Assembly: GCF_900141825.1 (NCBI RefSeq)
Contig: NZ_FQYQ01000016.1
Coordinates: 1 to 64,000, forward strand
Reading direction: 5' to 3'
Length of the DNA stretch: 64,000 nucleotides
Source: Pseudobutyrivibrio xylanivorans DSM 14809
Lineage (GTDB): Bacteria > Bacillota > Clostridia > Lachnospirales > Lachnospiraceae
Program-made: the position numbers and the translations under genes
Shown: one piece after another, positions 30,834-33,519 of the stretch
Layout: the number at the start of each line of letters is the position of its first letter
Position numbering within the stretch: position 1 is the first letter of the stretch
Notes under the pieces: generated by a model
Told to the model about the DNA's origin: nothing
The model's database searches: none
Seen by the model: the letters and a program-made list of their open reading frames with translations, nothing else

Positions 30834-31331
30834 TTAGTTTCGAGATATTTTAAGTATATCCAAAATCTCTCTTTGTTTTTCTTCCATAACAGCCGCGTCT
30901 GCCTCTGTCATGTGATCAAACCCAAATAAATGTAACATACTATGGGCTATAAGAAAAGCGTACTCACGGAGCACGGAATGACCGTATTCTTCAGCCTGCG
31001 ATAAGATTCTAGGTACTGAAAGAACTATATCTCCAAGAATAACTTCTCCTGTCTCAGGATTAAATAAGTCATCATCGTTTTCGATGTCATCAAAAACGCC
31101 TGGCTCCGAATATTCAATCATTGGAAATGAAAGAACATCTGTAGGAGCGTCTATATTACGAAATTCTTTATTAATAGCTTGAATTCCGTCATTATCAGTA
31201 ATTGTAATACTAATTTCTGCTTCGTATGGAAAATCAAGATGTTCGATAGCTGTGTTAACAACATCCTTTGCAATTTTCTCATAATCAAAATCGAAATTAA
31301 AATCACATTCAGTTTCAATAAAAATTGTCAT
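30834..31331 (-). CDS. ybeY: rRNA maturation endoribonuclease YbeY
   Basis: 165 residues. The zinc site is HSMLHLFGFDH, the H-x3-H-x5-H motif. YbeY takes part in 16S rRNA 3'-end maturation and ribosome quality control. Its start overlaps the stop of the upstream gene (ATGA), which keeps the phoH-pgpH-ybeY order known from Firmicutes. Confidence 0.95.
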   Translation of the reverse strand: MTIFIETECDFNFDFDYEKIAKDVVNTAIEHLDFPYEAEISITITDNDGIQAINKEFRNIDAPTDVLSFPMIEYSEPGVFDDIENDDDLFNPETGEVILGDIVLSVPRILSQAEEYGHSVLREYAFLIAHSMLHLFGFDHMTEADAAVMEEKQREILDILKISRN

Positions 31332-32521
31332 GCTAAAATGTCCTCGTTAGCTAAAATATTTCTAATAACCAAAAACTGATTCATAGAAAGAGTTGAATTA
31401 TCGTAAAAACCTTTCTGTGATAACTCATTGATTGTTTGGTAAATAACCATATTTTGATTCCAGGTGCTGCTCATTGCATCTTTATCAAATAGTTCTACCT
31501 TAGTAACTACTGAATCTACCATATGTACTATGGCGGATTCTTTTGTGCTAGGTAAATAAATGATTCCTCCGTATTCAGCTAGAATCTGAATTACATCACT
31601 TGGAAAGCAATAGTCATTAGCAATTTTGAGAGCGTTATCTATCATTGGTTCGCCCTCTATTTTACCAAGTCTGTAGTAAAATCCGCCGCAAGCGGCTAAC
31701 TCTGAATTGGCATTAATAGCTTCAGCACACTTACGAGATAAAATGGATACTCTGCTGGCATGCTGATACTCGATAAATGAAAAATTTCTTATATCCTGAA
31801 CCAGTGTGTAATCCTGACTAAGAAACATTTCGTAATTATTATGTTGTGAATTATCTACGTAGGTTTTGAATAATGGTACCAATGCAACCGTAAAAGCACT
31901 TGCAACAAAACCATCAACTAAACCGAAGAATAGAATCGATAGAGATAATTCCAAATAATTAAAGTAGTAAAAAATAATGGAAACAACTGTGGTGACAGCA
32001 AATATAAGTATTAAGATATATAGTCTTTCAAGGCCTTCTTTTTCTTTGAAAAGCTGAGCAAACACATTTCCGAAGGCAACTAATGTAACGTAACACAATA
32101 CTATAAAAATACTATAATCCAAACAAATTGACGTTACTATTACTAAATAAAGACTTAATACATTTGATAAACTGTCATCAAACACTGTTTTACAAACAAT
32201 AGGTAACAATATGAATGGAGCAAAAAAATCGGGTGAAAATAGCGCACACAGAAATGTAATAATCCATGTGAGCAAAATTACAAAAGTAATTTTCCCATAT
32301 GTTATATAGTTAAACTCTGGAAGAGCTCCTTCTAATCTTTTTCTGATAAGAAGTAAAACAAATAACAAGAAGAAGCATACATTAATTCCCATTATGCAGA
32401 TAAATTTATCTATAAGCACGGCATTTAATAAGCACAATACCGTATTTGCAATAATGAAAATCAATGCCATTCCAATGGTGTATCCAATCCTAATTGAAGA
32501 GAACCTATTGGTGTGTTTCAT
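31328..32521 (-). CDS. PgpH-like membrane protein with a degraded HD domain
   Basis: 397 residues. About ten hydrophobic segments (roughly 12-215) are followed by a domain clearly related to the HD domain of the c-di-AMP phosphodiesterase PgpH: HASRVSILSRKCAEAINANS (H254 kept) and PSTKESAIVHMVDSVV (D336 kept). The metal-binding HD pair is replaced by R284-L285 (YYRLGK instead of YYHDIGK), and the usual EHHG is EYGG. The long extracellular domain of PgpH (about 700 residues in total) is missing. Its place between phoH and ybeY confirms the homology. Probably not a c-di-AMP hydrolase; it may be a sensor or scaffold. Confidence 0.8.
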   Translation of the reverse strand: MKHTNRFSSIRIGYTIGMALIFIIANTVLCLLNAVLIDKFICIMGINVCFFLLFVLLLIRKRLEGALPEFNYITYGKITFVILLTWIITFLCALFSPDFFAPFILLPIVCKTVFDDSLSNVLSLYLVIVTSICLDYSIFIVLCYVTLVAFGNVFAQLFKEKEGLERLYILILIFAVTTVVSIIFYYFNYLELSLSILFFGLVDGFVASAFTVALVPLFKTYVDNSQHNNYEMFLSQDYTLVQDIRNFSFIEYQHASRVSILSRKCAEAINANSELAACGGFYYRLGKIEGEPMIDNALKIANDYCFPSDVIQILAEYGGIIYLPSTKESAIVHMVDSVVTKVELFDKDAMSSTWNQNMVIYQTINELSQKGFYDNSTLSMNQFLVIRNILANEDILA

Positions 32522-32532
32522 TATTCTACCCT

Positions 32533-33519
32533 TTATTTTGCCCTTTTATTTTTACTTTCTAGTTTTTTCTCGTGTGTTTCATATGCATTAACAATCTTTT
32601 GTACAAGAGGATGTCTTACAACGTCCTTTGAATCCAATGTACAAATCTTAATATCATCAATGTTTTTTAGAACCTTCATGGCGTCATCGAGACCAGATTT
32701 TTGACCGTTAGGTAAATCCTTCTGGGTCTGATCTCCTGTGATAACTGCTTTAGAACCAAAACCAATTCTTGTAAGGAACATCTTCATCTGAGCAGGTGTT
32801 GTATTCTGCGCTTCATCAAGGATAATGAAAGAATTATCAAGAGTTCTACCTCGCATGTATGCAAGAGGCGCAACCTCTATAAGACCCTTTTCCATATTTC
32901 GCTGGAATGCCTCAGCACCCATTATTTGGTAGAGCGCATCGTATAATGGTCTTAGATAAGGATCAACCTTACTCTGGAGATCACCTGGAAGAAATCCAAG
33001 CTTCTCTCCTGCCTCTATAGCTGGACGAGTAAGAATAATTCTTGATACTTCCTCATTTTTAAAAGCAGTAATCGCTTTGGCCATGGCAAGATACGTTTTA
33101 CCAGTTCCTGCTGGTCCTACACCAAAAACAATCATATTATTGCTAATGGCATCTACATATTTCTTTTGACCAAGTGTCTTAGGCGCTACAGGCTTACCTG
33201 TGGTGGTATGACAAATGATCTCACCTCTTGCCTCTGACACATCGTGACTTTCTATTTTTTCTTTTTCAATAGACATAACGTAATTTACATCCTGTGCTGT
33301 AATAATATTCCCTTTTTCTGACAGAGCAAGAAGCTCATCAATAATGATTTTACCGTGCTCTACTCTTTCTCTGTTACCAATAAGTTTGATGGCATCATCT
33401 CTCAAAATAAAAGAGATATTCATGCCGTTTTCAATTGACTTAATATTTCTGTCAAACTGACCAAATATATTATCTATATGGTCAGAGGGAATACTGATAT
33501 TTAAAGTAAATTCATCCAT
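32533..33519 (-). CDS. PhoH-family ATPase (PhoH-like, YqfG neighbour)
   Basis: 328 residues. An N-terminal KH-like region (about 1-95) and the PhoH ATPase domain with Walker A GPAGTGKTYLA and Walker B FIILDEAQN. It is a predicted ATPase tied to RNA metabolism; its exact role is open. It heads the conserved phoH-pgpH-ybeY order. Confidence 0.93.
   Translation of the reverse strand: MDEFTLNISIPSDHIDNIFGQFDRNIKSIENGMNISFILRDDAIKLIGNRERVEHGKIIIDELLALSEKGNIITAQDVNYVMSIEKEKIESHDVSEARGEIICHTTTGKPVAPKTLGQKKYVDAISNNMIVFGVGPAGTGKTYLAMAKAITAFKNEEVSRIILTRPAIEAGEKLGFLPGDLQSKVDPYLRPLYDALYQIMGAEAFQRNMEKGLIEVAPLAYMRGRTLDNSFIILDEAQNTTPAQMKMFLTRIGFGSKAVITGDQTQKDLPNGQKSGLDDAMKVLKNIDDIKICTLDSKDVVRHPLVQKIVNAYETHEKKLESKNKRAK

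Follow-up and report, generated by a model that had tools for sequence, protein, structure and literature searches.

PgpH normally destroys the signal molecule c-di-AMP. In Pseudobutyrivibrio xylanivorans DSM 14809, the reverse strand of the analysed window (the whole stretch of 64,000 nucleotides, positions 1 to 64,000 of contig NZ_FQYQ01000016.1) carries a PgpH-like gene with an intact, ATG-started reading frame of 397 residues, which begins 11 nt downstream of phoH and whose 3' end overlaps the start of ybeY by 4 nt. The features of the locus are:

32533-33519, minus strand: phoH, upstream neighbour (Pfam PhoH, 329 bits)
31328-32521, minus strand: degenerate PgpH of 397 aa without the outer domain (open reading frame and translation, PDB profile match, model superposition)
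31844-32497, minus strand: membrane part, seven long helices, residues 9-226 (AlphaFold2 model, sub-threshold Pfam 7TM match)
31331-31813, minus strand: pseudo-HD domain, residues 237-397 (superposition on 4s1c_A, ligand mapping)
31760-31762, minus strand: His254, kept equivalent of H514 (ligand mapping)
31670-31675, minus strand: Tyr283-Arg284 where PgpH has its HD pair, H543-D544 (ligand mapping; invariant in 54 of 54 rows)
31568-31573, minus strand: Tyr317-Gly318 in place of H604-H605 (ligand mapping)
31514-31516, minus strand: Asp336, kept equivalent of D648 (ligand mapping)
30834-31331, minus strand: ybeY, downstream neighbour, whose start overlaps the end of the PgpH-like gene (Pfam YbeY, 158 bits; TIGR00043, 149 bits)

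The order phoH-X-ybeY, by which the sequence-only reading had recognised the gene as PgpH, holds up, since Pfam identifies the neighbouring products as PhoH and YbeY, and the second mark on which that reading relied, a PSTKESAIV...DS stretch, is present in the translation as PSTKESAIV..VDS. The two neighbours flank the PgpH-like gene in 52 of 55 named loci; two contig ends and one broken copy make up the remaining three. These loci were collected with the patterns [KR]ESAIVHM and WNQNMVI, and L062 (broken) and L094 (partial) were left out of the 54-row set used below.

The Pfam family 7TM-7TMR_HD matches residues 47-218 of the protein with 23.4 bits, below its cut-off of 29.4, and reaches E <= 0.01 in 32 of the 54 clade members. 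None of the Pfam HD families reaches this value in any of the 54, and an NCBIfam scan of the 397-residue protein for HD returned just HDIG with 13.8 bits, below the cut-off of 27.6. A match to DUF4871 (Pfam E 0.024; three of 54 members) was judged to be due to chance. When a family profile built from 21 relatives was compared with the PDB, a single sequence matched, Listeria PgpH (4s1b), with a whole-sequence E of 1.1e-6 and a best segment of 2.1e-5, a colinear second segment not being significant alone. The AlphaFold2 model computed from 54 rows (pLDDT 85, pTM 0.76) places seven helices at residues 9-32, 37-63, 74-95, 116-134, 138-160, 164-189 and 194-226, and its residues 237-397 superpose on the HD domain of PgpH (4s1c_A) with Z 18.3 and an rmsd of 1.6 over 158 aligned residues; Foldseek searches with the model gave E < 0.001 for chains of 4s1b and 4s1c only. 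Profile match and superposition together bear out the homology to PgpH that had been proposed from the letters. The outer domain is missing as had been stated, the protein having 397 residues versus frames of 687-792 aa in five full-length relatives, and the extracellular 7TMR-HDED domain (PF07697) has no match anywhere in the genome. There is no second PgpH in the genome either, PF07698 giving one match, the gene at 31328-32521. Among the 50 structural matches listed, all seven that cover the membrane part only (model residues 70-228, window 31838-32314) are S components of ECF transporters (5kbw, Z 9.1; 3p5n, 8.8; 4huq_S, 8.3; 5kc0, 5kc4, 4hzu_S and 3rlb), with Z values that are weak for a helical bundle, and Foldseek returned other membrane proteins at E > 1.

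The metal ligands named for PgpH in PMC8177086 are H514, H543, D544, H580, H604, H605 and D648. Mapped through full-length relatives, two of these seven are kept (H254 and D336), which confirms the destroyed metal site of the sequence-only reading, with five ligands gone, and corrects its details. The HD pair had been read as RL, off by one position, since the gapless alignment of ..GFYYRLGK.. on ..GYYHDIGK.. gives Y283-R284; likewise, the second histidine pair had been read as EY, whereas E316-Y317-G318-G319 on QHHG gives YG. At the H580 site the protein has Met or a gap depending on the alignment, the column being a gap across the family rows in one alignment and filled in another, with His in two of 42 other family proteins. 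Moreover, the HD domain lacks about 26 residues at one place and about 27 at another, and the distance from HD to HH is 34 residues versus the usual 60-62, that from HH to D 19 versus 45-49. The corresponding spacings of the 42 other family proteins are likewise shorter, at 11-40 and 13-24 residues; 34 of these proteins have 34 or 35 for the first, and 33 have 19 for the second. Among the five full-length relatives, three have all seven ligands and two have six, with Gln for H605, showing that not every listed ligand is strict there. Like PgpH (Lmo1466 / YqfF, the 7TMR-HD c-di-AMP phosphodiesterase), the protein has the phoH/ybeY slot, a predicted membrane part, the HD fold and equivalents of H514 and D648, whereas it differs from PgpH in having no 7TMR-HDED domain, YR for HD, YG for HH, two stretches gone and no Pfam HD match. 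It is a PgpH by descent that lacks the outer domain and most of the metal ligands by which a PgpH phosphodiesterase is recognised.

The altered residues are conserved. Y283, R284 and D336 are invariant in all 54 rows, as is H333, and H254 is replaced by Arg in ten of the 54. Because search patterns were used for collection, invariance at positions 327-334 and 354-360 is partly built in; Y283, R284, D336, Y361 and G371 lie outside both patterns, and two relatives found through phoH (L098, L145) have Gln at the H333 position. Over the 54 rows the mean majority fraction is 0.68 from residue 229 on versus 0.43 before.

The PgpH-like gene is present in 29 of 29 sampled Pseudobutyrivibrio genomes, including its own, and 27 of the copies are near full length without stops, one ends at a contig end and one is broken. 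The broken copy, from B. fibrisolvens 16/4 (L062 / L009, G010), belongs to a record titled draft and has five in-frame stops and a stretch that is out of frame; a true lesion and a sequencing error are not distinguishable there. A profile search of 250 Lachnospiraceae genomes found the gene in 53, with open frames of 322-507 aa bar two fragments. The PF07697 outer domain was above its cut-off in none of the 250 (one match lay below it), compared with 81 of 146 genomes sampled across the order. PhoH was found in 141 of 150 Lachnospiraceae genomes, and 100 of these 141 phoH places were read, of which 97 also contain ybeY and three do not. Among the 97 phoH-ybeY slots, 68 are empty (<= 313 nt), 28 hold a short PgpH relative and one holds aroB; the largest gap measures 1514 nt, leaving no room for a full-length PgpH in any of them. 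The aroB gene, encoding 3-dehydroquinate synthase, sits where the PgpH relative would otherwise be, at L115:2546-3661 (G129). The 28 slot proteins, L146 and 13 further proteins that were fetched make up the 42 family proteins mentioned above, all of which match a profile of full-length PgpH, L203, L204 and the Pseudobutyrivibrio clade, while the aroB product as a control does not. Of these, 41 are not part of that profile and L101 is, being identical to L066; as it was counted twice among 96 family rows, the number of distinct proteins is 95. In a class-wide search 79 genomes matched, 77 of them outside Lachnospiraceae, with frames of 479-522 aa in five, assigned as short by frame length alone, and of 658-786 aa in the rest. 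The question of a clade-wide loss, raised together with the original observation, can hence be answered: the loss extends through the whole genus, and other parts of the family have short relatives that are degenerate as well. The patchy absence across the family implies a role that is useful, not essential.

The constant neighbourhood could mean that the protein is a scaffold or partner of the phoH-ybeY unit, tethering PhoH or YbeY to the membrane with a pocket that is irrelevant. The flanking of the gene by phoH and ybeY in nearly all named loci and the overlap of its end with the start of ybeY would fit such a function. However, other families also have phoH next to a full-length PgpH (beside L198-L202), which points to inherited synteny; the 68 empty slots retain phoH and ybeY without the gene, and the old active site is among the invariant positions, all of which makes a scaffold unlikely.

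A tree of 69 rows, 19 of the 53 clade rows among them, was computed after removal of the five plotted ligand columns; some long branches meet in it, and the placement of single deep rows is unsure. All 62 Lachnospiraceae rows group in a single clade with a support of 100/100. Inside it, the site of the HD aspartate (D544) is K, R or H in 44 of the 45 rows of a subclade (100/97) and a gap in the remaining one, and in the 17 rows outside this subclade it is E in ten, D in five, Q in one and K in one, a distribution that requires two changes between acid and base on the tree. A nested subclade of 29 rows that includes the 397-residue protein (100/100) has the pair YR, except for YH in L098 and L133. 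The relatives form a series from HD and HE through HK, HR and HH to YR and YH, along which each residue change between a metal enzyme and a protein devoid of metal can be put to the test. None of the 95 distinct Lachnospiraceae proteins has more than five ligands, and three have five (L151, L209, L211; H..HD..H..D). Judging by their residues, these three may still be enzymes of a one-metal type. A further member, L170 (G193; 487 aa), in which a charged stretch joins the membrane and HD parts, keeps the HD pair, has Asn for the last Asp and has the lowest profile score of the 42.

Short forms also occur in other families. L203 (466 aa, G051) and L204 (523 aa, G069) are too short for the outer domain, for which the genome of L203 has no PF07697 match, and share the short form and the membrane-HD layout with the 397-residue protein. 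Unlike it, they keep six and seven of the seven ligands, respectively, with an intact HD site and full spacing, and they fall outside the Lachnospiraceae clade. By their residues, both look like active enzymes.

One might argue that the 397-residue protein, too, is still an enzyme, holding one metal through His254, His333 and Asp336, which remain, in sequence, near the old metal site, and accepting another phosphoester as substrate; a single metal can suffice for the activity of HD domains. The invariance of H333 and D336 in the 54-row set and the existence of the five-ligand relatives would agree with this. On the other hand, the HD pair is wholly gone and one of its residues has given way to Arg with its positive charge, H254 is replaced in ten of the 54 rows, likewise by Arg, and the search pattern itself accounts for part of the invariance of H333, which is Gln in L098 and L145. 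Retained catalysis is thus quite improbable.

Selection was estimated for eight Pseudobutyrivibrio gene pairs by NG86. In all eight, the pseudo-HD part has a lower dN than the membrane part. Subject to dS values mostly above 1, three failures among sixteen estimates and species shared between pairs, dN/dS amounts to 0.011-0.041 in the pseudo-HD part (six estimable pairs) and 0.047-0.087 in the membrane part (seven pairs); for L061/L071, the least saturated pair, the values are 0.015 and 0.053. The degenerate HD domain is under strong purifying selection, and in Pseudobutyrivibrio constraint is stronger on the domain of the former active site than on the membrane part. A pseudogene or an assembly error was discounted in view of this selection and of the 27 of 29 same-genus genomes with near full-length copies, and the intact frame described by the sequence-only reading stands. 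That the gene is a relict heading for loss, kept by chance or for translational coupling to ybeY, is hardly tenable, even with 68 of 97 slots lacking it and one broken copy in the genus, since the selection data contradict it and the gene is found in every genome sampled from the genus.

Because the ligands are mostly lost, the frame is intact and purifying selection is strong, the best reading is a pseudo-enzyme with a kept role, and the 397-residue protein is very probably a non-hydrolytic, functionally retained membrane pseudo-PgpH, even though the empty slots, which show the gene to be dispensable at the scale of the family, and the ability of HD domains to act with a single metal speak against this. 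We infer the inactivity of the pseudo-HD domain from its ligands. The ancestor would have been the membrane c-di-AMP phosphodiesterase PgpH, which presumably lost its extracellular domain in this lineage; two stretches within the HD domain would have disappeared in the ancestor that the Lachnospiraceae forms share, and the dinuclear metal site would have decayed afterwards, if the order of losses is read correctly. Phosphodiesterase activity would thereby have gone and a membrane-anchored regulator would have been kept, whose pseudo-HD domain most likely binds rather than cuts. The conservation of the changed active-site region in Pseudobutyrivibrio likewise suggests sensing or regulating instead of cutting.

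How the pocket of such a pseudo-PgpH might work can be proposed from the residue at the place of the HD aspartate. As this aspartate is a metal ligand in PgpH, a basic residue together with H254 and D336 could occupy the place of the metal and hold a phosphate. Arg284, in sequence register with His254 and Asp336, would in this way replace the metal ions, and the pocket could hold an anionic ligand or a partner protein without hydrolysis; the His found instead of Arg in L098 and L133 of the 29-row subclade argues against a replacement of the metal by Arg. Going by the residues, a nucleotide is a tentative candidate for the ligand, and c-di-AMP itself is a fairly unlikely one, given that the missing stretches may have been part of the c-di-AMP pocket, which weakens the case for its binding. 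The full proposal, that the Lachnospiraceae turned a dinuclear phosphodiesterase into a membrane nucleotide receptor in which a basic residue stands in for the metal charge and c-di-AMP or a related nucleotide is bound uncut, is rather doubtful. A precedent of this kind exists in c-di-GMP signalling, where degenerate phosphodiesterases of the LapD/FimX type are receptors of c-di-GMP, a membrane-bound inactive domain having turned receptor. By analogy, the 397-residue protein may work like these degenerate EAL receptors and, if so, would be their counterpart for c-di-AMP. In contrast, the LapD/FimX type has the EAL fold and known ligand binding, while the fold here is unrelated, the nucleotide would be a different one and ligand binding is only guessed.

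In a literature search by title and start of abstract, no degenerate or truncated PgpH was described among the matches listed, most subscription papers being outside this scope, and within the same scope nothing was found that links PgpH, c-di-AMP and Lachnospiraceae. Lachnospiraceae are dominant gut and rumen bacteria. In those sampled here the outer domain of PgpH is nowhere above the cut-off and some genera retain a remnant with a broken metal site, and a gene in the PgpH slot of a Lachnospiraceae genome must not be taken for a c-di-AMP phosphodiesterase.

The sequence-only reading had also asked how c-di-AMP is hydrolysed in this organism and had suggested a search for gdpP. The implied gap is not borne out, as the genome contains a GdpP of 685 aa (G000:C37, L032) with GGDEF_GdpP, DHH and DHHA1 domains at 91.5, 91.2 and 51 bits, all above the Pfam cut-offs, and DHH motifs that are intact by eye (in this genome only). 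With GdpP present, no gap in c-di-AMP breakdown is apparent after the loss of PgpH activity. One DAC-domain protein lies above the cut-off in the same genome. We infer from the sequence that GdpP breaks down c-di-AMP here. A GdpP homologue is encoded in 149 of 150 Lachnospiraceae genomes, the sole miss being a genome that is 61% complete, and if the reading as a nucleotide receptor is true, GdpP would be the remaining c-di-AMP phosphodiesterase of known type in the family. Two further DHH-domain proteins, among others, are also present in the genome.
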